Positions 1 to 46,007 of a stretch of 64,000 nt of DNA are shown one piece after another. Within the stretch, counting starts at the first letter, position 1; the number at the start of each line of letters is the position of its first letter. The DNA is taken from positions 1-64,000 of the forward strand of contig NZ_JABVBB010000021.1 of assembly GCF_013346665.1 (NCBI RefSeq), in the 5' to 3' direction. The notes under the pieces are model-generated. The model was not told where the DNA came from. It ran no database searches and saw nothing but the letters and a program-made list of their open reading frames with translations. A program made the position numbers and the translations under genes. This stretch comes from Sulfitobacter maritimus (GTDB taxonomy: Bacteria; Pseudomonadota; Alphaproteobacteria; Rhodobacterales; Rhodobacteraceae).

Positions 1-38
1 TGGACCTGTCCCGCTTTCGTGCCGCCCCAAGTGCTCGT

Positions 39-896
39 TTAAGCCACTTTCCGTTCGAAGGCGACGGGGCTTTTCCAGCCCAGTGCTGAGTGGCGTCGCC
101 GTGGGTTGTAGAAGCCGTTGATGTATTCAAAGATCGCCATCTCAGCTTGCCGCCGTGTTTCCCATGACCTGCGCCAAATGAGTTCAGCTTTGATGGTTTT
201 GAAGAAGGTCTCGACGACAGCATTGTCGTAACAATTGCCCTTGCCAGACATCGACACCTTGAAGCCTTGCTGGCGCAGAAGTTTCTGGTAGTCGTGCGAA
301 CAATATTGCGACCCGCGATCCGTATGGTGGATGCAGCTCTTGGGCGGTGCCCTGAACGCAATTGCCATCTTCAAAGCCCGTATTGCCAAGTCTCGTTTCA
401 TACGGTTGCTGACCGCCCAGCCGATCACGCGCCTTGAATGCAGGTCGAGGATGACAGCCAAATACAGCCATCCCTCACGCGTCCAGACATAGCTGATGTC
501 ACCGGCCCATTTCTGGTTCGGTTGGTCAGCCATAAAATCCCGGTCCAGCAGGTTTGGCGCAATATTGAACTTGTGATCACTGTCTGTCGTCACCTTGTGT
601 TTACGGGTTCGCACCACGGATATGCCGTTCTGGCGCATCAAACGACCCACACGGCGGTGACCGATATTCAGGCCGATCTCCTTCAGTTCTTCTGTCATGC
701 GCGGCCTGCCATAGCTGCCCAGGCTGAGACGGGATTGTTCTTTGATGTGCGCCAAGGTGACCAGATCAGACCGCTGTCTGCGGCTGGCAGGACGGCTTCG
801 GAATGCTCGCAAACCGCGCGAACTGACACCGACAACGTGACACAAGCGGTTCACGGGGAAGTGGCTCCGGTGTTCCTCGACAAACCTAAATCTCAT
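39..896 (-). CDS. IS3-family transposase OrfB (DDE integrase domain)
   Basis: This 285-aa catalytic subunit carries an N-terminal HTH_21-like region (SLGSYGRPRMTEELKEIG, about residues 58-75) and an rve integrase core. The DDE triad is visible as Asp in GDISYV, Asp in HHTDRGSQY and Glu in VVETFFK. The C-terminus (YINGFYNPRRRHSALGWKSP) is also typical of the family. It is probably expressed mainly as the C-terminal half of a frameshifted OrfAB protein. No stop or deletion interrupts it. Confidence 0.92.
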   Translation of the reverse strand: MRFRFVEEHRSHFPVNRLCHVVGVSSRGLRAFRSRPASRRQRSDLVTLAHIKEQSRLSLGSYGRPRMTEELKEIGLNIGHRRVGRLMRQNGISVVRTRKHKVTTDSDHKFNIAPNLLDRDFMADQPNQKWAGDISYVWTREGWLYLAVILDLHSRRVIGWAVSNRMKRDLAIRALKMAIAFRAPPKSCIHHTDRGSQYCSHDYQKLLRQQGFKVSMSGKGNCYDNAVVETFFKTIKAELIWRRSWETRRQAEMAIFEYINGFYNPRRRHSALGWKSPVAFERKVA

Positions 897-1168
897 TGCT
901 TTAGGCCCGCAAAGAACTGGGTGGCCTTTTTTAGGATTTCCCTCTCCTCCTTGAGAAGACGGTTCTCGCGCCGAAGTCGCTCATTCTCTTGGGCGAGGCT
1001 CAAATCCTCTTTCGACACCACGTCTGTGCCTCGGTGCGCGGTGATCCATTTGTTAAGCGTCGACATGCCAACACCCAGATCGTCAGCCACCTGCTTGCGC
1101 GTCAGCCCACTCGTCAGTGCGATACGCACCGCATCCTGGCGGAATTCGTCCGTCCGTTTCAGTCCCAT
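893..1168 (-). CDS. IS3-family transposase OrfA (HTH protein)
   Basis: This 91-aa protein is the DNA-binding OrfA of the IS. Residues 1-50 form a helix-turn-helix of the HTH_Tnp_1 type (GLTRKQVADDLGVGMSTLNKW). Residues 58-85 are a heptad-rich leucine zipper (ENERLRRENRLLKEEREIL) used for multimerisation. Its 3' end overlaps orfB by four bases. The codons AAA AAG near its end form a slippery site, and the -1 frame is open from there straight into orfB, so the active product is probably an OrfAB fusion. The length is normal for the family. Confidence 0.9.
   Translation of the reverse strand: MGLKRTDEFRQDAVRIALTSGLTRKQVADDLGVGMSTLNKWITAHRGTDVVSKEDLSLAQENERLRRENRLLKEEREILKKATQFFAGLKQ
927..933 (-). 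other. A6G slippery heptamer for programmed -1 frameshift
   Basis: On the minus strand this reads AAAAAAG in the orfA phase A AAA AAG, the IS3-family slippery motif. From the slip point the -1 frame has no stop and runs through the orfB ATG at 896, as I checked codon by codon. The feature therefore explains how the OrfAB transposase would be made. Confidence 0.8.
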
Positions 1169-1413
1169 AGTTCATCTCCTTTGTTGCAGTAAATGCTATC
1201 AAAGGAGCGGCATCAAACTGCGACAGGTCCACTCTTATGCTGACCTACTCTATGGTTCTGCATTTTGTGCAGGAGAATGGAGCCCAATGAAGGGGCTGCT
1301 TAGGATTCATAGTCGTTATCAGGTCGGCCGCTAGGAAGTAACGTAGGCGAGGCGCGGTACGGCTCGCTACAGAACGGAGTAGCCGCTTGTGACTGTTTAT
1401 CGAAATTCTAGCT

Positions 1414-1813: not shown

Positions 1814-1916
1814 AAGAATCCGGCTGAAAGGTCAGCTGGATATTCGGGAGCTCAGCAATATTGGTGCAGCATAGAACATGTGGTTACCGTCCATGATTTT
1901 TGCACCGGCGTCAATA

Positions 1917-2105
1917 TCAGACCGGAAAGCCAGCTTGTGCTTCTCGCAACATCCTCTCAATCTTCAAGCGTCCTTCTGCCGTGCCTGTGAGGTCGATTGG
2001 CCGCCGCCCTGCCAACAGGGGCGACTTGCGCGTCATCCACTCTACCGCCTTTTCGGCTGAGCCCATAACCTCAACGCAAAACGCCATCAATTCCGCTTCA
2101 CCCAT
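1917..2105 (-). CDS. Orphan MbcA/ParS/Xre-type antitoxin domain protein
   Basis: This 62-aa protein matches the C-terminal toxin-binding domain of Xre/MbcA/ParS antitoxins (DUF2384). The features are a VMGSAEKAVEWM segment, then LAGRRPIDLTGTAEGRLKIERML, the family's usual G-x-x-P-x-D-L and T-x-x-G pattern. A good ribosome binding site (GGAGG six bases before the ATG) supports this start, and an in-frame stop lies just upstream, so it is not a cut-off longer protein. It has no N-terminal HTH and no RES/MbcT toxin next to it, which makes it an orphan. The family assignment comes from motif reading only. Confidence 0.55.
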   Translation of the reverse strand: MGEAELMAFCVEVMGSAEKAVEWMTRKSPLLAGRRPIDLTGTAEGRLKIERMLREAQAGFPV

Positions 2106-2225
2106 CCATCACCTCCGACATTGATCTTAGGTTTCTAGAGCGCAGCCGCAAAGGGTTCAGAACTATGATCTCGGAATGCCTACGGGTCTGCACGCTAGGC
2201 CTCTTCACGAGATCCTTAACGCGAG

Positions 2226-2362
2226 ATCTCGATAACCTGCGCGTGGCTCGGATCCTGATCGAACGATGGAGGAACCACTGCAACACAAGCCGACCACACA
2301 GCGTCCTGCGCTACCCTCCATCGATTCCGGAAGCAGTCGTTTCGATGGATCAGCAGCCTTAA
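2226..2362 (+). pseudogene. Remnant of an IS3-type transposase C-terminus
   Basis: The frame reads RVARILIERWRNHCNTSRPHSVLRYPPSIPEAV. This matches the last part of IS3-family OrfB proteins, which typically show an LIE-WR-HYNT-RPHS-LGY-PPAPE pattern. Only this tail remains; the catalytic core is missing. The bases after it (ATTGAAACTGGGCCACCCC) resemble the right terminal repeat of such elements. It is a second, dead insertion separate from the intact element at 1-1231. Confidence 0.6.
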
Positions 2363-2718
2363 CTGCACTAGCATTGAAACTGGGCCACCCCGGGGTGGGG
2401 CTCCACAACCTTAAGGGCTGAGTTCAAAGAGTTAACTCCTCAGCCCCCGCCACACACTAGCTCTCAGGTGGTGAGCTGCTGCTGGTTCAAGCTGAAGCGA
2501 TAGACCTAACCCGGCTTTGGGTGCAAGATCGCAAACGGCTCAAGCCGGAGTTTCGGTTGGGCGTTTTCTACCCTCCCTCAGCTTTTTTTGCGAAGTCATT
2601 GGAAGAGGTCTGATCCATTCCCAACGTCATCATAGATGCTGGGTGGTGCGGTCGTCTGTACAATAATTCAGCATCCATCTACGGTCATCAAAAGATAAAA
2701 AACAGGCGGACGGAAGAA
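2363..2718. other. Non-coding gap between IS remnant and hsdM
   Basis: I see no supported gene here. The first 50 bases look like the right end of the transposase remnant (CACCCCGGGGTGGGG is a local palindrome). The last 100 bases should hold the hsd promoter, but no convincing -35/-10 pair stands out. Confidence 0.5.
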
Positions 2719-5022
2719 GTGTCTCAATCTACCAATAACCTAGCCTCTTACATCTGGTCCCTCGCTGATCTCCTTCGCGGGGATTTCAGGCAGAGCCAGT
2801 ATGGGCGAATAATCCTACCCTTTACTCTTCTGCGGCGCCTGGAGTGTGTATTGAAGGAAACTAAAGGCAAGGTTCTTGCAGAAGCTGAGCGGATTGAAAC
2901 ACTTGGATTGCCGGAGGAGGCCAAGGAGAAGCTGCTGTTGAGAGCCGCTGGGCTGTCTTTCTACAACACCTCTAAGATGGACCTCACGAGCCTTGGTGCA
3001 AATGGCATAAAGGACAACCTTGAAAGCTACATTCAGGCTTTTTCAAAGGACGCCCGAGAAATCTTTGAGCACTTCAAATTTGGAGAGTTCACCGCCCAAC
3101 TTGCTGATGCAAACCTCCTTTATAAGGCAGTGCAGCAAGTCAAAGGTGCAGACCTCAGCCCAGACGTCATTTCTAACCACGATATGGGTCTGGTTTTTGA
3201 AGAGCTCATCCGGCGATTTGCCGAAAGCTCCAATGATACGGCAGGGGAACACTTCACTCCGCGTGACATTGTCGATCTGACTACCTCACTGGTCTTCATG
3301 GAGGATGATGAGGCTTTAACGAAAGAAGGCGTCATCCGCACCATATACGACCCCACCGCAGGCACTGGTGGCTTTCTATCAGCTGGCATGGAGTATGTGC
3401 TTAAGCTCAACCCCGCTGCGGTCATGCGTGCCTTTGGACAAGAACTGAACCCCGAGAGTTACGCGATCTGCAAGGCTGACATGCTCATCAAGGGTCAGGA
3501 CGTGACTAACATCAAATTGGGCAACACGCTTTCTCAGGATCAGCTGGCAGCTGAGCGGTTTGACTACATGCTCGCCAACCCGCCGTTTGGAGTTGATTGG
3601 AAGAAGATCGAGAAAGACATTAAGGACGAGCATACGATCAAAGGCCATGATGGGCGCTTTGGGCCGGGCCTGCCACGAGTCTCTGACGGTTCGCTCCTCT
3701 TCCTGATGCACCTCATTTCGAAGCTTCGAGACATCGACAAGGGGGGTGGCCGTATTGGCATCATCCTGAATGGCTCGCCTCTCTTTACAGGGGGCGCAGG
3801 TTCAGGCGAAAGTGAGATCCGCCGCTACATCCTTGAGACTGACCTTCTTGAGGCTATCGTCGCCCTGCCAACCGATATGTTCTACAACACGGGCATCGCG
3901 ACCTACGTCTGGATTTTGACAAACAAGAAAGAACCTAGCCGCAAGGGAAAAGTACAGCTGATCAACGGAACCGAACTCTACAGCAAAATGCGTAAATCCC
4001 TCGGGTCCAAACGCAAGTGGATGGACGACAGTGACATTGCTACGATCACGCGCTGCTTTGGTGGTTTCGAGGCTATTGAAGCCAGACCACTCGATAAGCC
4101 TGCCGAAGGGAAAAAGAATCGAGGACGTCGGCCTGCAAGCCCCAAGGCTGAAATAGTCAGAACCTTCGCTGCGAAGATTTTTGACACCTATGAGTTCGGC
4201 TACCGCCGTCTGACAATCGAACGACCCTTGCGGGAGAGCTTTCAGTTCAGCGACGAACGAATTGAAACCCTGCGCTTTGCCCCCAAACCGCTGCACGCCA
4301 TTACACAGTGGATATACGAAACATATGGCAGGTCTTGGGATGAAGATGGCGCGAACTATGGCGTCTTAGAGGCGGACGAAATTGAAATCCGAGCTCACAT
4401 TAAAGCCGATTTCCCCGAACTGAAAGAAAAGCAGGTTAAGGAGGCGCTAGACCCGAGAACTTGGCGCAACCAGCTGGCCGTTCTGCAAAAGGCCCGTGCG
4501 TTGCAGGCGAACATTGGGAGAGACCAGTTCGACGATATGAATGGGTATGAAAAGATATTGAAGGCTACAGGCGTAGCGTTGGATGCATCGGCCAAGAAGC
4601 AGATAACTGCCGCCGTCAGCTGGAGGAACCCCGAGGCCGAGAAGGTTATCAAGAAGGTTCACAAGGAAGCTTCTGCCAATCCTCTTTACGGGCTCTTTGC
4701 GGTGGACGGGCAAACGATTGAATACAAACCGGATGGTGATTTGCGTGACAATGAGAACGTACCGCTGGACCCATCGCAGCCCGTAAATGCGGTGAACGAA
4801 GCCTACTTCAAGGCCGAGGTTCTACCCCATGTGCCCGACGCGTGGATCGACGCCCGCAAGGTAGATGCGATTGACGGAGAAATCGGCATCGTCGGCTATG
4901 AAATCGCGTTCAATAGGCATTTCTATACTTATCAACCACCCCGCGATCTGGCCGAGATTGATGCGGAGCTTGATGCCGTCAGCGCAGAGATCATGGCGCT
5001 ACTGCAAAAGGTGCACGTGTGA
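2719..5022 (+). CDS. hsdM: Type I restriction-modification system, methyltransferase subunit HsdM
   Basis: HsdM transfers a methyl group from S-adenosylmethionine to adenine N6 at the site chosen by HsdS, and it is needed for both modification and restriction. Residues 8-50 match the HsdM N-terminal domain ([16 protein letters not shown]). Motif I is [10 protein letters not shown] near residue 211 and catalytic motif IV is NPPFG near residue 287. At 767 aa it is longer than the common form of about 520 aa, with some 250 extra C-terminal residues, as in several HsdM subfamilies. It starts at GTG 2719 after a GGAAGAA stretch. Its stop overlaps the hsdS start (TGATG), so translation is coupled. 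Confidence 0.95.
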
Positions 5023-6328
5023 TGGGGGGGCGTTACCGGCGCCTTTCCGGATGCCAGTCCACAGGTGTCGAATGGCTCGGCAACATCCCGAAATCCTGGC
5101 AGGTAAAGCGCCTAAAACATCTTGCAAAAATCAGGAACGGGCAAGACTATAAAAACGTGGAAACTGAGGAAGGCATACCTGTCTATGGGTCAGGCGGTCC
5201 ATTCACCTTCGCATCTACATATTTGTATGACAAAGAATCGGTTTTGCTAGGCCGAAAAGGAACAATCAATAAGCCTCTTTTTGTTGACCACCCTTTTTGG
5301 ACAGTCGACACGATGTACTACACCGAGATCGACGAAGAGACACCTGCTAAGTTCTTATACTACTTGGCGACAACTATTCAATTTGGAAGGTACTCCACCA
5401 GCACCGCTCTGCCGAGTATGACGCAAGAGCACCTAGCAAATCACTCCTTTGCGCTTCCCAAAGATAAAAACGAACAAGCACAGATCGCGGCATTCCTGGA
5501 TCACGAGACAGCCAAAATTGATGAGCTAATTGCTAAGCAAGAGCGACTAATCGCGCTACTAGAGGAAAAGCGCCGAGCAGTGCTGCGCCATGCGGTGACC
5601 CGGGGCCTGAACCCAGACGCTCCCCTGCGTCCTTCTGGCATTGACTGGCTCGGTGATGTTCCGGCGCATTGGGAAATGAAGCCGCTGAAATACCTTTGCA
5701 GCTTCACCGGAGGTGGAACACCAAGCAAGGACGTGAAGATGTACTGGACCGACGGTTTGGTTCCTTGGGTTTCACCGAAAGACATGAAGACCTTTTACTT
5801 ATCAGATACTCAAGACCGAATTACACCAGCCGCTGTAGGCGGTTCATCGACCAACTATATTGAAGAAGGGGCTTTATTAATGGTCGTTCGCTCCGGAATT
5901 CTCCAGAGGACGATACCAATTGCGATCAATAAGGTCCGGGTGACACTCAACCAAGATATGAAGGCGCTAAGGTTTAGCGGCTTAGTAGATGTTGAGTATG
6001 CTGCCAACTACATCTTGGGGCACCAGGAAGTGCTGTTGCATGAATGGTCAAAGGAGGGTGCCACCGTAGAGAGCATTGAGCACGAGTATCTTTGCAATCA
6101 CCTTTTTCCAGTACCTCCCATTGAGGAGCAAACTCAAATAAGAAAATTTCTGGATCAACAGAAAGTGGACATGGACTCCCTTCTGGCGAAATCCAGATCT
6201 GCCATCACCCTACTCAAAGAACGTCGTACGGCCCTCATCTCAGCCGCTGTCACCGGTAAGATCGACATTCGCGGCTGGCAGCCTCCAAAAGATATTTTAG
6301 ATCAAGACACCGCACAGAAAGCATTTGC

Positions 6329-6332
<4 letters not shown>
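5022..6332 (+). CDS. hsdS: Type I restriction-modification system, specificity subunit HsdS
   Basis: HsdS recognises the split DNA target and bridges HsdM and HsdR. The 436-aa protein shows the expected pseudo-duplicate plan. TRD1 starts at GVEWLGNIPKSWQVKRL (about residue 15). A central helical spacer of EEKRRAVL type covers about 150-195. TRD2 starts at SGIDWLGDVPAHWEMKPL (about 205), and a second helical arm begins near 367. The two halves begin with the same G-x-(E/D)-W-L-G signature. I chose ATG 5022, which overlaps the hsdM stop; a GTG lies just upstream at 5019. The stop overlaps the hsdR start in ATGA. Confidence 0.95.
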
Positions 6333-9598
<3,266 letters not shown>

Positions 9599-10228: not shown

Positions 10229-11446
10229 TCAGTTCGATCTTCCTGCACGATCTCGCCGACGTGCATAGCCGGTACTAAAGTAGTACTCGGTTGCCTCTTC
10301 CGCAAAGGATCGACGCTCAGAAGCATTCTCAAAATCCAATCCTTGGCAGGCAATCCTCTCTAAAACACTTCGAGCAGGCAGCTTTCTTGACTGTTGTATT
10401 CTCTCAAAAATATTCTCACATGCCCATTCTAGATTTTGGTAATGAAAATCCCGCCTGCACTTTTCCAGATGGCTCTTGTATCCGTATATTTTGGGCTTCG
10501 GAACCGGAGCCATTAACCTTCTGATACTCCCTTGCCCGGCTCTGTCAGCCTCAAATTTTGACCTAATATCTTCTGCCCAAGAATTATACTTGAGATACTT
10601 TCCCATACGCAAATCCACGATAAATGGTTCTGCGAATTCAGCCCACTTGTTCGGCTGCTGCAAAAGTGGCTTAACCGTTCTTGGGTTGCCGAATAAGCCC
10701 TTTCTCCAACGCTCAGCGTAGAATCCTGTTGCACATTTGACTGCGTGGATCGCGTCCTTTGGGGGGCATTCGAAAGCTTCTCCTGCATATAGCTTTTCCT
10801 GTAATATCGCGTGCGCATCGTATTCGATCATTTCGTTCGCGGGATGCGCGATTGCGAAAACAATTTGATAGGGTAGGTGAACCGTATAAAAGCGATCTGT
10901 CATAAGATCCCTAACGCGCCGCGTTAGGTCGTTCGTCATACCTACCTTGCACAGTTCAGGGGTCGAAGGGCTACGAACCACATACACATACCCCGCTTTC
11001 TTCTCACGGAGCTTCTTCTTTTCCGCCTTTTTCCGTAGGGCGGTTGTGCCGTTACTATCCTCTATCTTGCAGATCGCATCTTCAACTGCTTGGAGGCGGT
11101 TGTTTAACGGTACAATCTTGAGGTTCAACTCGGAGATCTGATCGGTAGTCCGGTTGCTCCTGGCAGGGCTTTGCGTTTTTTTTAGTTCGTATAGTTCGCT
11201 TCGTCTTGCTCTTAACAACTTCAATTTTGCAGACAGTTCATCTCTTTCTGCCCTGAGCTTTCCCTCAATTCGTTGGTCGGGTATGATCTCCTCCTTGCCG
11301 ACATTCAACACGCCTTGGATGCCAACTGTATTATTGAGTGTGCTAGGACTATTATCGTTCTTAAAAAAACGTTTGAACAATTTTGTCCCCTTTCTAGCTC
11401 GTCTTCCTGTGAGGTCGCCACCTAGAGCGTTTCTGTGTGACGCCAT
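10229..11446 (-). CDS. GIY-YIG (T5orf172-like) nuclease-fold protein with coiled coil
   Basis: The core around residues 150-240 (GYVYVVRSPSTPELCKVGMTNDLTRR) is a GIY-YIG fold of the T5orf172/MUG113 type. GYVYVV stands for GIY, KVGMT for the YIG strand, R for the catalytic arginine, and a downstream Glu (YAGEAFE) follows. An N-terminal helical coiled coil lies at about residues 45-130 (ERDELSAKLKLLRARR). Such proteins are common in phages and mobile islands and are suspected DNA nucleases, but the role here is inferred from fold and neighbours only. The frame stays open to TTG 11548, which would add a possible membrane segment. I prefer ATG 11446, with modest confidence in the start. Confidence 0.75.
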   Translation of the reverse strand: MASHRNALGGDLTGRRARKGTKLFKRFFKNDNSPSTLNNTVGIQGVLNVGKEEIIPDQRIEGKLRAERDELSAKLKLLRARRSELYELKKTQSPARSNRTTDQISELNLKIVPLNNRLQAVEDAICKIEDSNGTTALRKKAEKKKLREKKAGYVYVVRSPSTPELCKVGMTNDLTRRVRDLMTDRFYTVHLPYQIVFAIAHPANEMIEYDAHAILQEKLYAGEAFECPPKDAIHAVKCATGFYAERWRKGLFGNPRTVKPLLQQPNKWAEFAEPFIVDLRMGKYLKYNSWAEDIRSKFEADRAGQGSIRRLMAPVPKPKIYGYKSHLEKCRRDFHYQNLEWACENIFERIQQSRKLPARSVLERIACQGLDFENASERRSFAEEATEYYFSTGYARRRDRAGRSN

Positions 11447-11780
11447 TCTACAGCTTAGGCTCAGCACACATATCCAATAGGTAGCGGTAGCGGCAAGAGC
11501 GATTGCTGAGAGGGAACACCTCCAAGCATAGGTCGTATCGGGCCACAACGCGACGCCCGTCCTATGTAGATCACCTTAGCTTACTACTAGCGCGATATCA
11601 CTTTGATAGGTTTTCCCAGAGAAAGCTATAAGGCTCACCGCTTTCATAGCCGTATGGTCGTGAGCAGTACAACTCTGGCTGTCTTTTAGCTTCCAGCCGA
11701 GAGACTACAACTAAATTTGAGCCAAGGATCCTAAACGTGCTGTTCAGCCCGCCTTCCGCTTACTGGTTCTCAACACATGA
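11447..11780. other. Non-coding stretch upstream of the GIY-YIG gene
   Basis: No gene is supported. This 334-bp span should hold the promoter of the GIY-YIG gene on the minus strand and the 3' flank of the hypothetical gene at 11781-12152. I see no clear terminator. Confidence 0.4.
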
Positions 11781-12152: not shown

Positions 12153-12201
12153 CTTGTGACTCAGCTAAGGGTGCTTGTCGAGAGGTTTAGGGGCGAGCAC
12201 A

Positions 12202-12453
12202 TTGGCAGGCGCAGTTCATACAGATGCATACCGATTGCTACGGCAGGAATTGGTCGGGCTGCGACAGGCGGCGGGCATGTCGCAGGCTAAACTTGCGGAA
12301 GAACTCGGAAAGCCAGCATCCTATGTCGCGAAGTATGAACTCGGCGAGCGGCGGCTCGACGCTGTCGAACTCTGCGTTATACTAAGATTAACTCGTGCTG
12401 ACCCTCGTCAATTCTTCGTCAAGCTATACGACGCATCACCAGACAAATTGTGA
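12202..12453 (+). CDS. XRE-family helix-turn-helix regulator
   Basis: The protein is a single HTH_3/XRE DNA-binding domain. The pattern LRQELVGLRQAAGMSQAKLAEELGKPASYVAKYELGERRLDAVEL has the canonical SQ-LA recognition helix and the Y-E-GERRLD tail. It is typical of small regulators of mobile elements and restriction systems. I prefer TTG 12202, but the same frame is open to TTG 12175. It lies between the recombinase operon and the hypothetical gene, so it may control one of them; the sequence does not show which. Confidence 0.75.
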   Translation: MAGAVHTDAYRLLRQELVGLRQAAGMSQAKLAEELGKPASYVAKYELGERRLDAVELCVILRLTRADPRQFFVKLYDASPDKL

Positions 12454-12566: not shown

Positions 12567-12998
12567 TCACCTTCTTGCGCGGTTAGATCTAGGGAGCGGC
12601 TTATTCAGCTGCTTGTTCAGGGCAACCATGTCGACATTGGGCATCATGTAGAGATTGTATTGCCACCGCGCGAATTGCTCGACGTACAGTTCCCGTTCGC
12701 GCTCCAAACGAGCGACTTGCGCTTTAAGCTTCTCAACTTCGGACAGGGCAGCTTCTAGAGTGTAATCGACGCTATAGGCGGAGTTCGTTGCCTTTGCGGA
12801 CTTCAGTTCCGCTTTTCGAGCACGGACTGCCTGAACAAGTTGAGGATAGCTTAGAAGCGTGTGCCTGGAGATGCTCGGTACGCCGATGATTTGAGCTACC
12901 ATTTTGCCAACAAGTGGCCAAGTTAACTTACCTTGCCAACCATCTAACTCTAGGAGGATACGAGACATTGCGTCTTCATTGATGAGTTTGGTCTTCAT
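12567..12998 (-). CDS. Small coiled-coil partner of the recombinase operon
   Basis: This 143-aa protein is the last gene of the four-gene recombinase operon. Its start lies directly after the stop of the third recombinase (TAA-G-ATG). Residues 1-60 look like a compact helical, possibly DNA-binding domain (WPLVGKMVAQIIGVPSISRHTLL). Residues 85-115 form a clear coiled coil (ALSEVEKLKAQVARLERERELY). This matches the plan of TnpC of Tn554 (about 125 aa), an accessory factor affecting excision and orientation of insertion. The comparison is by architecture and position, not by alignment. Confidence 0.6.
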   Translation of the reverse strand: MKTKLINEDAMSRILLELDGWQGKLTWPLVGKMVAQIIGVPSISRHTLLSYPQLVQAVRARKAELKSAKATNSAYSVDYTLEAALSEVEKLKAQVARLERERELYVEQFARWQYNLYMMPNVDMVALNKQLNKPLPRSNRARR

Positions 12999-12999
12999 C

Positions 13000-15147
13000 T
13001 TATGTTCCTAACAGCCCCCGCAAATAGTCATCGGATAGCTTCTCATCCGACAGATCAGCGGTGTCGGTTTCATACCCGGCGTTTTGGAGCGCCCTTTTAG
13101 TTTGGCTCGTATCGTATTCTTTGGGTACCCGGATTAATGTTCCCTTTGGCGTTTCTGGGTCTTCCAACTTCAGGCGCTGCGTTCTAATTAGCGCCAATCG
13201 ATAACCGAAGTGATCAACCCAGCGAGATGCCCCAAAATAATCTAAGCCCTCCGCCTCACGGGCTCGATTGAACTCGGCCTCGACCAGTTTTTCTTCGACC
13301 CGAATTTTTTCGAGATTGTCGGTCAGGCCCTTGATTACGCAGTGCTCTTTACATGTTAGACAGTTCCCGCCCTTAGTGCAGGGCTCCATAGCAAAGTCAT
13401 GTTCGCAAAAGCCCCACTTGGTTATTTCAGCGACTCCAAGCCTGCCTTTGTATCCAAGCGCTTCGTAGGACACTGGGCCATGCAGTTGTGCTTGCTGTAG
13501 AGCGTTTTGCGAAACTCGGGATAATTCGAGAACCTCTCGCTCTCTTTGTTCTCTCTCCGCTGGCGTTCTCAGATCATAGTGGCGGTTATCGTCGACCCGA
13601 AGCCTCCCAGCCCACTGAGCAAGTTCGAAGCTGTCCATGTTCCCGCGTTCTGCGTTTGTCGAAAGCCAAACTCTAAGTTGATGACTGGTCAACCTAATTT
13701 CAGATCCGTCTTCATTTTTCAGGCCGAAAGTACTAAAGATAGACGCGGTTCGACCTCCGCTTTTGTTTGGGCGGCTTGCTAGTGCATGGTTGACCAGTTC
13801 AGTACCCAGTGTTGGTACGGCTAGCTTATATGGCCTCGTATTAAATTGACGGTTGGCAGCGAACTCCCAAGTGAGGACCAGAGAATCTTGCAGTTTTATC
13901 TCCGTTCCTAAAACATTTGGAAAATTTTTTGGTAGTACCCGTCTGGCGAAATCACCAAGGTCATTATACGTAATGGTCTCTTTTCCATCGACGTGATCCC
14001 AAAATCTCTTGTTTAGCTCCGGTGAGCCCACATTTATTCCGAGAGCAATCCTTTTGGTGATACCTCTAGTGATTTTGAGCTGAGCATCAGAGGCCTTTGG
14101 ATTTGCCGTGAGGCCGAGGGCAGCGTGAATCTGATATCCGTTCAGGGGGGCGGTTTGCTCGAAACCCTCGGCAGTACAGCACCCTTGATGTACATAAAAG
14201 CCATCTTTTCTGTCATGGTAGAAAGCTGCTGCTCTCCTTGGCTCCTCGCTTATATCCCGAAGTCGCTTTACCGCTTCTTCAACTACGGGCTCCATAACTT
14301 TTGGCACCCATTTTATTGTTTCGCTAAAGCCTTTTGCTGAATGCCAACGGACACCCATGCGGCGCTTAGTTTCTCCACCGTCTTCGTACTCTTCCTCTGT
14401 TAAGCAGTCACGAGTTAGATAATTAAGTTCGGACACCCGACCGGGCGCAAAGATCAGCATGATAATCAAACTGGTCACATATCTATCCGGGGTTGTTTCT
14501 GCGCGATTGAAAGCGTCCATGATACACAACATTTCGTGCATGGAAGGGCATCGTTCTTCCTGCCATTTCTTATCTTTCTCTGAGGTGCCCATGGAGCGCT
14601 CGCGGGGCCGGTTCCAAGGGTTTCGCCATATCGGTAGGTCAATCAGGATCTTCTTATCTCTGATTTCATCGTACAATTTTTCAAGTGCTTGGCCAAATCG
14701 ATACAGAACGGCTGGGCTCATTCTGCCAGTCGTTTCGACGAGCTCGCGAACTTTGCCTTGAACGATGCCGTCCAATTCAAGAATGTCTGGCTTACCGTAC
14801 ACTTCAATTAATGCGGCATATACATAGCGCAGCCCATTGAGGGGTTTGCCAACCGTCGACGTCAACTTTCTTGTAAGATGTGTTCGAATATAGGCTTTAG
14901 CAAAATCCATAAATGGTTGCTCAAATGGTGTATGCTGTCGCTGACTTTGGTTGCGTCCTTGAAACTTCAATTGCGAAAACAAGACCACGGTTTTCGTAGA
15001 GCTAACTGAATACTCCCAACGATCCACTGAAAACCCACCTTGGTCTTCAAATAGTGTCAAGTTATCGCGAGCAAAGCTGATGAAGTCGCGGAGGTTGCGG
15101 ACACCATCAGTCTCATGCTGGGGTTGAAAGACGACAGTATTAACCAT
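13000..15147 (-). CDS. Tyrosine recombinase, large zinc-cysteine type (third of trio)
   Basis: This 715-aa protein has a phage-integrase catalytic domain. The first catalytic Arg is in FAPGRVSELNYL, the H-x-x-R box is SHQLRVWL, and the nucleophile Tyr is in DDNRHYDLRT. After it, residues 577-602 hold a cysteine/histidine cluster (FCEHDFAMEPC...CLTCKEHC) that probably binds zinc. The arrangement resembles TnpB of Tn554, also a long recombinase. Its start overlaps the end of the upstream recombinase by eight bases. The conserved active site suggests a working enzyme. Base composition is poorer in GC than the core genes. Confidence 0.8.
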   Translation of the reverse strand: MVNTVVFQPQHETDGVRNLRDFISFARDNLTLFEDQGGFSVDRWEYSVSSTKTVVLFSQLKFQGRNQSQRQHTPFEQPFMDFAKAYIRTHLTRKLTSTVGKPLNGLRYVYAALIEVYGKPDILELDGIVQGKVRELVETTGRMSPAVLYRFGQALEKLYDEIRDKKILIDLPIWRNPWNRPRERSMGTSEKDKKWQEERCPSMHEMLCIMDAFNRAETTPDRYVTSLIIMLIFAPGRVSELNYLTRDCLTEEEYEDGGETKRRMGVRWHSAKGFSETIKWVPKVMEPVVEEAVKRLRDISEEPRRAAAFYHDRKDGFYVHQGCCTAEGFEQTAPLNGYQIHAALGLTANPKASDAQLKITRGITKRIALGINVGSPELNKRFWDHVDGKETITYNDLGDFARRVLPKNFPNVLGTEIKLQDSLVLTWEFAANRQFNTRPYKLAVPTLGTELVNHALASRPNKSGGRTASIFSTFGLKNEDGSEIRLTSHQLRVWLSTNAERGNMDSFELAQWAGRLRVDDNRHYDLRTPAEREQREREVLELSRVSQNALQQAQLHGPVSYEALGYKGRLGVAEITKWGFCEHDFAMEPCTKGGNCLTCKEHCVIKGLTDNLEKIRVEEKLVEAEFNRAREAEGLDYFGASRWVDHFGYRLALIRTQRLKLEDPETPKGTLIRVPKEYDTSQTKRALQNAGYETDTADLSDEKLSDDYLRGLLGT

Positions 15148-16702
15148 TTTCAGACCTTAGCTGTTCGGCAGCAGTTTTGATCGCGAACGAACGGCTGATT
15201 TGCAAGTCGTACGATTGGAGTACGCCGTTACCGACATTATATTGCCTTAGTTCGTCACGCTCATCCAAGAGCTCAGTCAGCAGCTCGTCCCACGGCGCGT
15301 CTATCCAAGGTTGGAACTGAGTGCAGACAAGGCAAGACTTGATGCCGCCAGCACAGAAACCTTCGTTTCCGCAGTTTCCCATAGATGCCCCCCCGGCTTT
15401 ATGGATCCGGCTGTTCGGATCGTTGGCGCGGATCGCATCTCTTTCGGAATCGATAAGCATGCCTCTCGCTGCCATTGCTAGTGGGGCGAGGGCAGGGAGC
15501 ATCGCTTCATCGATCCGCTCGGCTACGTTGGGAGTGTTTTCAGTGTAAACTCCGATTTGCTGAGTATCGGAGTGGTCTAAAAGGTAAGCTAACTCTGTGC
15601 CGCCGATACCTTTTCGCCTGAGGTTAGTGGCCCGACTCCGTCTCATCCTTGTCTGGGTGATATGGATCGTGTCGCCAGTGCGTTCTGAAATAGCAGTGCA
15701 CATGTGCGACAGTTTTCCGACGATGGCGGCTGTCTGGCTGCTAGTGGCATGCAGAAAGTCCGGTGTTTCTCTAAGTATTTTGCTCAGAGCTTCAAGCGAC
15801 CCCAGTTGTTGAACGCGTGTGCGATCAGCAAAAATTGGCAGTTCTTGTAAAATTCCGACGGGCACAGCATCGGGGATGCATTCCTCAACCATGTTGGAAA
15901 CGATTAGACTTAGGTTCTTTAGAATAAGGTATAAATCTTCGCTAATTAGTACTTCACGAAACTGACTACGATAGGTTGCTGCACGTTGCTTTGATCGAGG
16001 TACGGCAAGCCAAAACTGACGAGCAGCAGTCTCGTTAGACGTTTTGAGGTCCTTTGCACGTAGAGCGCGAAGGTTTACGGAGCGCCTTCCGGTAACAAAC
16101 GAACAGTAAAACCAAGCATACTCCATAAGTGAGATATTTTCTTTATCAAACTCATTCGTTGCCCAATTCAATACTGCGGCCTGTTCGGTCGTGGTGTATG
16201 GGCCGCTGTGTGGGCAGCGGTGTGCTACTGCCGCACCCTTCCTGTTCCCCCGGAGGCTGAGGGTATCAAGATAGGGGATGACATCGTTTTCTAGCCCTTT
16301 CTGTCCGTAGTCAGATAAGGTACGCAAGAACCCCCTGAGATGCCCAAGTCGGTATTCGTTTTGACGATTGAGTGAAGAGCGAAAATTTTGGAGCTGAGTG
16401 GTTGTAATTGGTTCGCCCGTGAAATGCGGTGATCCAAGGAAACGCAGTGAATTATATAGGCAGCCGGAAGTGTAGCTAGAGGATGCTTCTACAGCCAATC
16501 TTCCGAGAGTGTATCTAATCGCTTCGCATAATTCGCCTTCATCCTCGAATATGTTTCCCAACGCAGAGAGATTCAGGCGATATCCGCCATCCAGCTGCCA
16601 GATATCCTTCGCAAAATCAAATTCATAACCAGCCTTCGATCGTAAAAATTTCGAAGGCCTGGATTTTCTTGCGGCGTCTTGCTGGTTTTTCGACGACTTC
16701 AC
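15140..16702 (-). CDS. Tyrosine recombinase with C-terminal cysteine cluster (second of trio)
   Basis: This 520-aa protein has a recognisable tyrosine-recombinase core. Arg I is in FVTGRRSVNLRALR, the second Arg box is TRMRRSRATNLRR, the His box is LLDHSDTQQ, and Tyr is in IGVYTENT. Residues 441-461 carry Cys-x2-Gly-x-Glu-x-x-Cys and Cys-x2-Cys pairs, probably a zinc site. Its ATG overlaps the stop of the first recombinase in an ATGA arrangement. It differs from both neighbours in length and C-terminal domain, so the trio is not a recent triplication. Confidence 0.78.
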   Translation of the reverse strand: MKSSKNQQDAARKSRPSKFLRSKAGYEFDFAKDIWQLDGGYRLNLSALGNIFEDEGELCEAIRYTLGRLAVEASSSYTSGCLYNSLRFLGSPHFTGEPITTTQLQNFRSSLNRQNEYRLGHLRGFLRTLSDYGQKGLENDVIPYLDTLSLRGNRKGAAVAHRCPHSGPYTTTEQAAVLNWATNEFDKENISLMEYAWFYCSFVTGRRSVNLRALRAKDLKTSNETAARQFWLAVPRSKQRAATYRSQFREVLISEDLYLILKNLSLIVSNMVEECIPDAVPVGILQELPIFADRTRVQQLGSLEALSKILRETPDFLHATSSQTAAIVGKLSHMCTAISERTGDTIHITQTRMRRSRATNLRRKGIGGTELAYLLDHSDTQQIGVYTENTPNVAERIDEAMLPALAPLAMAARGMLIDSERDAIRANDPNSRIHKAGGASMGNCGNEGFCAGGIKSCLVCTQFQPWIDAPWDELLTELLDERDELRQYNVGNGVLQSYDLQISRSFAIKTAAEQLRSENG

Positions 16703-18003
16703 AACTTCTGCCGCTTGTTTATGGAGATTTCATCCAACTGAACTTGCATTAGACGATCAGCCTTCTCTTTGATATGTCGCAAATTGTACGTTTCTGAGGT
16801 TCTTTCTGAGCGCCAGCGATTCAGATTCATACGTATTTGCATTTCTTCTTTTTGCGAGATTTGATTTGCCGAAGGGTCCTTGGCCGCACGGGCATTGTGC
16901 TCGTCAAACTTCTTTGAGAGTCGATAGTTGAAGTTGTGCCGAAAGCCGTGGCGTGTGATCTCGTTGAAAATTTCCGGTGTCTGATTAGATGCTGGTTTGG
17001 CAATTCTGGTTTTGAAGGTCGCGATGCCGACTGGCTGGCCATATCCAACTCCCTTCCGATGGTTCACGAATACATATGGATGAGATCTTGCTGCCTGAAT
17101 TTGAGAACGGTCTTCCATGATGTATCGGCGTAAGTCACGAGCCAGAGTTTCCGTAATGTAGACCTCACCTTCTTCAGTTTTCACCACGGGTTGATGTTTT
17201 CGGCTGTCGTGAACGTCATCATGGCGTCGAATGATTTTCAGCACCCGGCGAGACCAATCGACGTCCTCAATCCGAAGACCGAGAACTTCTCCTCCCCGGG
17301 CACCTGTCTCGTACATGATGTCGAACATCACTTGGTTGCGCAGTCTCACATTTTTGCGGAATGGATTATCCGGATTATCGACCCGGACCAAGCGAATGGC
17401 CTCAGAGTAAACTTCCGGTGGAGCGGAGCGGTAGTTTGGATCGCCTTGTAATCCCGAATTCCGAGCTACTCTTGGCGCCTTCGCTTTCATGAATTCAGCC
17501 ATTTCATCGAAACGCGCATACAGTTCTGTACGATTGGCGGTACCACGGTGTATGGTCTTTCCGACAAAAACCAAAAAAGATGCAGCTACACTCATTCGGT
17601 ATTTTTGAAGCCCGGCGCTAACTGTCTCAAGGGGCGACAGACTATGCGGGTGATGGACTTGCAACGAGACCACATCTTTAAATTTCTTGATTTTCTGCGT
17701 TCTTTCGACTTCAGCACGCTTAAGTGTGAAGTGGTCGTATAGCGCATCGATGTCTGAGGAGGACAAGAGCTTTTTCGCTCCGAACTCCGAGATTAAATCT
17801 CTATCGTTCACTTGCTCCCAGAGTTTCAAGTGACGAAGTGCCGTGAGAACACTTAGGATCGTATTCTGAGTAGACTTGTAACGCAGTTCAACTGTGACAA
17901 AGAGTGTTGACCAATAATCTGGTAATCCATCCGTCTCAAGGTAGCTGAATCGTTCGCCGCTGGCAAAGATAACATTGCGTTGGGTTAGCACACGATTCCT
18001 CAA
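16699..18003 (-). CDS. Site-specific tyrosine recombinase (first of trio)
   Basis: This 434-aa integrase has Arg I in TGARGGEVLGLR, the H-x-x-R box in RHGFRHNFN and the nucleophile Tyr in TSETYNLRHIK, so the catalytic set is complete. It opens the operon that faces ssb, in the position of TnpA in Tn554. The frame starts at TTG 18003; GTG 17991, preceded by GAGGA, is a reasonable alternative. The 140-bp upstream region holds two copies of a 15-bp repeat flanking a TTGACA hexamer, suggesting autoregulation or an attachment region. Confidence 0.85.
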   Translation of the reverse strand: MRNRVLTQRNVIFASGERFSYLETDGLPDYWSTLFVTVELRYKSTQNTILSVLTALRHLKLWEQVNDRDLISEFGAKKLLSSSDIDALYDHFTLKRAEVERTQKIKKFKDVVSLQVHHPHSLSPLETVSAGLQKYRMSVAASFLVFVGKTIHRGTANRTELYARFDEMAEFMKAKAPRVARNSGLQGDPNYRSAPPEVYSEAIRLVRVDNPDNPFRKNVRLRNQVMFDIMYETGARGGEVLGLRIEDVDWSRRVLKIIRRHDDVHDSRKHQPVVKTEEGEVYITETLARDLRRYIMEDRSQIQAARSHPYVFVNHRKGVGYGQPVGIATFKTRIAKPASNQTPEIFNEITRHGFRHNFNYRLSKKFDEHNARAAKDPSANQISQKEEMQIRMNLNRWRSERTSETYNLRHIKEKADRLMQVQLDEISINKRQKL

Positions 18004-18007
18004 CCAG

Positions 18008-18022
18008 TCAAAAATCTACACT
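18008..18022. repeat. 15-bp direct repeat, copy 1, upstream of recombinase operon
   Basis: TCAAAAATCTACACT here recurs exactly at 18059-18073. Both copies are preceded by TCAACC, with two extra bases in this copy. On the minus strand this copy lies between the presumed promoter and the recombinase start. It is a candidate binding site for the recombinases or a repressor. Confidence 0.75.
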
Positions 18023-18058
18023 TTTGATTAGTTTCGAAACCGTGTGCCTGTGTCAACC

Positions 18059-18073
18059 TCAAAAATCTACACT
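18059..18073. repeat. 15-bp direct repeat, copy 2, upstream of recombinase operon
   Basis: This is identical to 18008-18022, with a start-to-start distance of 51 bp. On the minus strand it sits just upstream of a TTGACA hexamer (18056-18051), so the two copies flank the likely promoter. Between them lies a perfect 10-bp palindrome, GTTTCGAAAC, at 18031-18040. Confidence 0.75.
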
Positions 18074-18143
18074 AGAGGGGCACATCTATCTTATTTTTAA
18101 AGAGTTGAGGTAGATAAATCGACTCTCTTATATTTTGTTACTC

Positions 18144-18665
18144 TCAGAACGGAATCTCATCATCAAGATCACGGCTGCCGCCACCACCGCCGCCGTAGTT
18201 GCCGCCGCCGCCTTGGGAGGAGGGGCCGCTGTCATAGCCGCCGCCGTAGTCATTGCCACCGCCGCCGCCGCCATAGCCGCCTTGGCCACCGCCACCACCG
18301 CCGGAGCCGCCACCGGGGCCGTCAAGCATGGTCAGCGTGCCGCCGAAGCCTTGCAGCACGACTTCAGTCGAATAGCGGTCTGCGCCGGATTGGTCTTGCC
18401 ATTTGCGGGTCTGCAACTGGCCTTCGATGTAAACCTTAGAGCCCTTTTTTAGGTACTGTTCGGCCACCCGCACCAGACCTTCTTGGAAGATCGCCACCGA
18501 ATGCCATTCGGTCTTTTCGCGGCGCTCGCCGGTGTTGCGGTCTTTCCAGGTCTCCGAGGTGGCAATGCGCAAGTTGCACACTTTGCCGCCGTTCTGGAAC
18601 GACCGCACCTCGGGGTCGCGCCCGAGGTTGCCGATTAGGATCACTTTGTTCACTGAGCCGGCCAT
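18144..18665 (-). CDS. ssb: Single-stranded DNA-binding protein
   Basis: SSB coats single-stranded DNA in replication, repair and recombination. Residues 1-110 form the OB fold, starting [22 protein letters not shown] long Gly/Ser-rich linker follows, then the acidic tip DLDDEIPF that recruits partner proteins. At 173 aa it is a normal size. The glycine-rich linker is encoded by GCC/GGC repeats that also open spurious alanine-rich frames. The recombinase island lies only 140 bp beyond its stop, and no terminator follows, as if the island had landed directly at the 3' end of ssb. Confidence 0.97.
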
Positions 18666-45828: not shown

Positions 45829-46007
45829 GACTCAGGGCCATCGGCTGCCCGTGGGGTGGCGATCGCAACGGTGATCTGTGCCACTTTATGGTGCAGCGCA
45901 TACACGACCCCTAAAGCTTGCGTTCAGCCTCACCAAATCGCCAGCCCGCCGGGACGGGCAGGCGATGGCCCGGCGCCTGCGGCTTGATTCCGGGCGCAAG
46001 AAAGCCA

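Follow-up and report, generated by a model that had tools for sequence, protein, structure and literature searches.

A tightly packed predicted operon of four genes, ginABCD, lies on the minus strand of the 64,000-nucleotide stretch of the Sulfitobacter maritimus genome analyzed here (contig NZ_JABVBB010000021.1, positions 1 to 64,000; hereafter the window) and encodes three different tyrosine recombinases and a small protein. These are very probably the movement genes of a GInt located at the 3′ end of the chromosomal gene for the single-stranded-DNA-binding protein (SSB), ssb, and carrying defence cargo. The module, its target, both junctions, the cargo and the absence of the element from the other searched genomes of the genus were observed directly. 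We propose that the four Gin proteins would act jointly on a core of 6 bp, which mostly reads CCRTTY. The target's own hexamer would remain at attL, the hexamer of the circular form would go to attR, and a stop codon lying immediately within the left end would become that of ssb. GInts are a known kind of element, in which ginABCD code for three integrases and a small protein that are all needed for excision and integration (Bardaji 2017, PMC5385486). Members carrying defence systems, termed the Tn6571 family, have been reported in Escherichia coli (Hochhauser 2023, PMC10121019). The original prediction, which took the four genes for a little-described mobile system, thus has to be revised, since they fit the GInt description. 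What is added here is one more member, on an alphaproteobacterial chromosome, together with details that did not turn up in the open-access papers searched: the Pro-Phe core, the hexamer polarity, the element-supplied stop and the catalytic residues of GinC.

The gene ginA (16699..18003, minus strand, start codon TTG) encodes a tyrosine recombinase of 434 residues, ginB (15140..16702, minus, GTG) one of 520 residues with a C-terminal Cys cluster, ginC (13000..15147, minus, ATG) a large divergent one of 715 residues also ending in a Cys cluster, and ginD (12567..12998, minus, ATG) a protein of 143 residues with a predicted helical N terminus and coiled coil. Overlaps of 4 and 8 nucleotides join ginA to ginB and ginB to ginC, and a gap of 1 nucleotide separates ginC from ginD. 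The original prediction had described four adjacent genes of these lengths with overlapping or abutting junctions, which would form one operon; all were found as described, including the coiled-coil partner and the Cys clusters in two of the recombinases. The three tyrosine recombinases, the single small protein and the tight spacing that define ginABCD are therefore all present by sequence. GinA matches PF00589 (Phage_integrase) with an E value of 2.2e-14. GinB matches it at 3.7e-6, with a score barely above the cut-off (27.3 versus 27.1 bits), and corresponds to the NCBIfam family NF041502, "site-specific integrase" (450.6 bits, cut-off 350). For GinC and GinD, no family match reached the curated cut-offs.

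The same four genes are found in Shimia thalassica (Rhodobacterales, Roseobacteraceae), the only locus returned by a genome-contig scan with the 715-residue protein. Their products share 72 to 78% identity with those of the window, and the genes lie directly downstream of ssb with other cargo beyond. The four-gene arrangement is not due to chance, because Shimia keeps the same genes with near-equal product lengths (436, 520, 715 and 143 residues) in the same order and with the same overlaps. In that species ginD is directly followed by a gene for a second small protein, of 155 residues (L002, 12592-13059), with a weak match to DUF6262 (25.7 bits, cut-off 29).

Alignments identified the catalytic residues of all three recombinases, as the original prediction had suggested: R236, K275, H352, R355, W397 and Y406 in GinA, R207, K238, R354, H377 and Y386 in GinB, in which the box-II His is replaced, and R237, K272, H489, R492 and Y524 in GinC. 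The assignment to boxes, GinA W397 and the equivalence of GinC R515 to the third His, which it replaces, are our reading of the alignments. Both Arg and the Tyr are present in all aligned rows (13 for GinA, 14 for GinB and 15 for GinC), and all five GinC residues are kept in 15 of 15 rows. By alignment GinC thus appears to keep R, K, H, R and Y, unlike in the published accounts, which state that its first catalytic Arg is missing (PMC5385486) or that it is without the RHRY motif (PMC10214605). A hidden Markov model (HMM) alignment of GinC to XerA (4a8e; E = 0.0054) supports the C-terminal boxes, and box I aligns weakly (1.7 bits). PF00589 was matched singly by five of the 15 GinC sequences, that of the window not being among them. 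The 15 sequences come from 28 profile loci; L007 and L011 were omitted as near-copies of L009, L030 for lack of a gin match, L033 for an internal stop, L037 as cut by a contig end, L041 because ginC is split into two open reading frames (ORFs), and L035, L040, L043, L044, L046, L047 and L048 as not needed or more divergent. The GinB and GinA alignments additionally leave out L038, and that of GinA also L006, where ginA is cut. In the Cys clusters, C457 and C460 of GinB are invariant and C444 is found in at least 90% of the 14 rows; C581 and C590 of GinC are invariant, with C596 and C599 in at least 90% of the 15 rows. Both clusters may bind metal. The GinD structure model is fair (pLDDT 79.4) and shows a helical N terminus, which we read as helix-turn-helix (HTH)-like, followed by a long coiled coil; compared with the PDB, it gave no match at an E value of 0.001 or better.

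Directly upstream of ginA lies the host gene ssb (18144..18665, minus; NF004972, TIGR00621), whose product ends in DDEIPF. The attL core hexamer CCGTTC (18147..18152, minus) makes up the Pro-Phe codons of the SSB tip, and beside it stands the stop codon TGA (18144-18146, minus). This stop is probably derived from the element, because the host sequence that follows the attR hexamer begins with TAAGCC, as in relatives; SSB thus still ends in IPF because the left end of the element presumably gives ssb a new stop codon. The left end and ginA leader (18004..18143, minus) have an A+T fraction of 0.64 and contain TGTAGATTTTTGA twice, as read by eye. The other junction was found on contig C25 of the same genome, where aroB is followed by attR (ssb strand, AACCATTCTAAGCC), by cargo and, at the contig end, by a copy of an IS3-family insertion sequence (IS). 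Imperfect direct repeats therefore flank the island at a specific site (TTCCGTTCTGA at attL, AACCATTCTAA at attR), and the attR hexamer adjoining the aroB flank is CCATTC. Among relatives whose ORFs were listed, aroB comes directly after ssb in L013 and L016 and is separated from it by one further gene in L019, where aroB was recognized by eye. The IS3 copy of C25 is 100% identical to the first 1231 bp of the window (1..1231, minus), where it forms the contig end; in total, the genome has 10 full copies of this IS. The island most likely continues onto C25 (L028, 1348-8094) and would be 23,668 bp long if the two contigs were joined through one IS copy; it may exceed 23.7 kb by extra IS-bounded DNA because the IS has 10 full copies. 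Its A+T fraction is 0.50 to 0.51, versus 0.40 in window positions 19000-64000. Thus, the island outlined by the original prediction holds for the module and its cargo; the adjacent ssb as target and the other end on a separate contig had been missed.

The IS3 copy within the inferred island raises the possibility that the element is an immobile, degenerate remnant, with an island split by an IS and a module that is intact by sequence. All four gin genes are open, however, with catalytic residues kept and both junctions recognizable, and of the 62 genomes searched in the genus, 61 lack GinC; we consider this explanation unlikely.

The cargo next to the gin genes includes a type I restriction-modification (RM) system and a T5orf172 protein, in agreement with the original prediction of a mobile module with defence genes. 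The methyltransferase HsdM (2719..5022, plus), the specificity subunit HsdS (5019..6332, plus) and the restriction subunit HsdR (6329..9598, plus) were all recognized by PADLOC, HsdM and HsdR scoring below the NCBIfam cut-off. HsdM and HsdR share 41% identity with those of the GInt on the Xanthomonas plasmid pCuR, a value too low to indicate recent sharing. The T5orf172 protein (10229..11548, minus, 439 residues), which we take to be GIY-YIG-like, is the PADLOC candidate PDC-S57, and a family match identified an HTH_3 regulator of 92 residues (12175..12453, plus). On C25 the cargo comprises an ATPase (PDC-M38A, E = 7.8e-54), its partner (PDC-M38B, E = 3e-7; Pfam DUF3226), presumably TOPRIM-like, and the cargo as a whole also includes unassigned ORFs. 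Short ORFs at window positions 1878-2408 resemble, by eye, remnants of another IS transposase.

GinC was found in one of 60 relatives and one of 62 genomes of the genus, each time the window's own, and GinB in three of 295 family genomes, own included. With the GinC profile, matches came from four of the 385 genomes searched in the class and from 18 of the 398 searched in the phylum, the window's genome being included in both counts. In all 19 distinct genomes with a GinC profile match the order was ginA-ginB-ginC (with one ginC split and one cut by a contig end), and ginD was detected in 12, once about 2 kb further along. The constant gene order and the scarcity of GinC in relatives thus indicate that the gin genes move as a group and are no fixed part of related genomes, as the original prediction of a module recurring beside varied cargo would have it. 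An ssb gene is adjacent to gin in eight of the 19 genomes; three loci are at a contig edge. Among plasmids, the 715-residue protein matched 109 of 72,556 records at an E value of 1e-3, 46 of them over at least 80% of the query, and the weakest of the 109 matches are short and may be other recombinases. In nine of 10 plasmid records retrieved, ginA has ssb as its immediate upstream neighbour; in the remaining one the locus is truncated at the start of the record. The window, Shimia and the plasmids are therefore concordant in showing the 3′ end of ssb as a frequent, though not the sole, GInt target. According to the records, defence or restriction functions follow the module in six of the 10 plasmids: avs4 and an AbiGi-family protein in three E. 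coli plasmids, type I RM in Xanthomonas pCuR, type ISP RM in Pseudomonas aeruginosa PS1793 p3 and an anti-phage dGTPase in a Citrobacter plasmid. Of the other four, the Pasteurella plasmid has genes for metal resistance, pPAD8 encodes a large protein without a name, and IS elements predominate in the two from Klebsiella. Cargo after ginD hence differs between the window, Shimia and plasmid loci, with the gin operon at one end of the island. No GinC match was found in 50,697 phage records. GinC matched two loci in viral contigs and GinB none; one of them, L030, has no gin gene by profile. The other (L029, 3976-8759) has all four gin genes at low identity, with no ssb match in the part of that contig covered.

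Could the element belong to another group with several recombinases, such as the strand-biased circularizing elements (SEs), the RIT elements, the gamma-mobile-trio islands or the relatives of Tn554? These share its logic of two or three tyrosine recombinases, mostly with a small helper, and the 6-bp polarity reported below matches that described for SEs and Tn554 (PMC10214605). SEs are alike in their four-protein logic and in keeping the host 6 bp at attL and the carried 6 bp at attR, a shared trait that does not imply membership. However, their order is intA-tfp-intB-srap, whereas the large divergent protein of the window comes third, and PMC10214605 places GinC and Tfp in separate similarity clusters and reports no Tfp or Srap homologues in Alphaproteobacteria. 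Tn554 likewise combines recombinases with the small TnpC and has a reported 6-bp footprint, a kinship in logic that the original prediction had pointed out, but it has two recombinases and is said to be without a Tfp counterpart (PMC10214605). The RIT archetype consists of three recombinases of 315 to 410 residues in three coding regions, unlike the 434, 520 and 715 residues plus 143 found here. In searches for GmtY, GmtZ and GmtX of the gamma-mobile trio, only GmtY gave a match, at 24.2 bits versus a cut-off of 340. A divergent integrase in third position, a small protein in fourth and an ssb target are what the GInt description contains. It is therefore highly improbable that the element belongs to one of these other groups. 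It shares with the GInts of PMC5385486 the ginABCD order, the cargo after ginD, the short imperfect direct repeats, the preferred site at the end of ssb, where several GInts were reported, and RM cargo; that paper already noted gin operons in Alphaproteobacteria. Defence cargo is a feature shared with the E. coli GInts of PMC10121019, whose host differs. The word ssb does not occur in the main text of either PMC10121019 or PMC10214605.

Several points weigh against the identification as a GInt at ssb. The assignment was made by the gene order and ssb target published for GInts, whose type element is that of P. stutzeri DSM 4166. No ssb match was found beside gin in 11 of the 19 genomes, and the plasmid loci were chosen by us and are not a random sample. 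The join between C25 and the window contig (C14) is not unique, as 10 full copies of the IS exist, and, compared with the short AT-rich 3′ end described for GInts, the last 150 bp of the element have only a mildly raised A+T fraction (0.57 versus 0.40 in window positions 19000-64000). Finally, the GinC structure model is poor (pLDDT 38.8), so that the catalytic residues of this protein rest on alignment.

Within the SSB tip motif D-D-x-I-P-F, the core hexamer encodes the final Pro-Phe. A search for empty sites of nine plasmid GInts yielded matches for eight, with CCGTTC or CCATTC at the matched sites, and the attL hexamer was identical to that of attB in eight of eight; pEC0430-1, for which no matching empty ssb was found, was left out of this count. 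The ssb frame ended in Pro-Phe codons at all 17 ssb-linked loci (CCGTTC at 15, CCATTC at one and CCGTTT at one). In empty relatives of the IncN, IncC and PS1793 plasmids SSB extends beyond the tip, by APVTLPFPNHAIHAL, MRLHHLAGG and MDPYRFTWMMQ, respectively; with the insertion, SSB ends at IPF and the stop comes from the element. The SSB tip probably has to be terminal to bind its partners. A core placed within the tip codons could explain why unrelated GInts choose ssb, offering an answer to a question that dates from 2017, as this choice by very different GInts was noted without a cause in PMC5385486.

The hexamers at the two ends differed in a consistent direction: the host hexamer was at attL and a different one at attR in six of six informative insertions. 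The Xanthomonas pCuR, IncN and IncC plasmids are informative by direct comparison with attB. The window has CCGTTC at attL and CCATTC at attR; among 11 relatives, 10 have CCGTTC, one has CCGTTT and none has CCATTC. The alphaproteobacterium G505 has CCGTTC at attL, as do four of four relatives, and CCCTTT at attR. Genome G746 has CCGTTT at attL, as do two of three relatives, and CCGTTC at attR. In this genome (L073, around position 1343, reverse strand), a second GInt-like left end follows attR, as if this end were all that is left of an earlier GInt at the same ssb. Compared over three colinear blocks (11,647 bp of the IncN copy), the copies on the IncN and IncC plasmids, from two Klebsiella oxytoca isolates, show two substitutions, which affect the third base of each end hexamer: A/G on the left and G/A on the right. 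The blocks also contain 10 gap columns of one base each; intervening IS copies, which differ in number and orientation, were excluded from the comparison. The right end of this element occurs in just three plasmid records.

Polarity of this kind, with the host 6 bp at attL and the carried 6 bp at attR, has been described for SEs and Tn554 in PMC10214605, which calls strand bias in GInts elusive; no hexamer polarity of GInts was found in the available text of PMC5385486. Alternatively, a heteroduplex over the 6-nucleotide core might be repaired either way, as in the resolution described by Bardaji, and the six concordant cases would be due to chance. In line with this, the attI of pGInt0 was that of the input in 50% of clones and attB-like in the rest (22 attI; PMC5385486). 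However, six of six in one direction has a one-sided probability of 1/64 under 50:50 resolution, if the cases are independent, and the IncN/IncC pair represents a matched hexamer swap. Resolution in either direction has a modest chance of being the right explanation.

We regard it as an even bet that GInts use a strand-biased route like that of SEs and Tn554, with attR bearing the hexamer of the previous site, and that tailed plasmid SSBs are trimmed to their tip in the process. On the other side of the balance, the attR hexamer of G505 departs from CCRTTY, and the G746 locus, a composite one, was interpreted by eye; another match to CCRTTY in the stretch inspected there (CCGTTT) was disregarded. 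The attB hexamer was inferred from relatives in three of the six informative cases (the window, G505 and G746). Five of the eight matched plasmid junctions are uninformative for polarity, two of the five (pSJ_82 and pETN48) carrying the same element type, and the IncN and IncC copies represent one lineage, such that the cases are few and not fully independent. If the strand-biased route is correct, the CCATTC of the window's element would indicate that its donor ssb differed from the ssb of the 11 relatives. Insertion on IncN, IncC and pCT14-type plasmids would remove the SSB tail and expose the canonical tip, i.e., the element would edit the SSB of its host. Hexamer polarity could help to trace the origin of islands, and genome data alone could test whether GInts move like SEs and Tn554. 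Beyond these questions, the window provides a further GInt with defence cargo, in this case on the chromosome of an alphaproteobacterium.

We also considered that the ssb promoter might drive gin on entry into plasmids. This idea was weakened because our scan placed a terminator-like hairpin immediately downstream of ssb in 11 of the 17 ssb-linked left ends but in only two of 12 empty sites. Several of the 17 loci are closely related, and for several of the five empty sites on chromosomes the scanned stretch started some bases off. The scan found no such hairpin after ssb in the window or in Shimia. A promoter scan gave one site directed towards ssb and none on the strand of gin. Rfam gave no match in the window at gathering scores. 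Away from the island, window positions 45834-45995 show a 77% match to a stretch downstream of ssb in a relative (L016).

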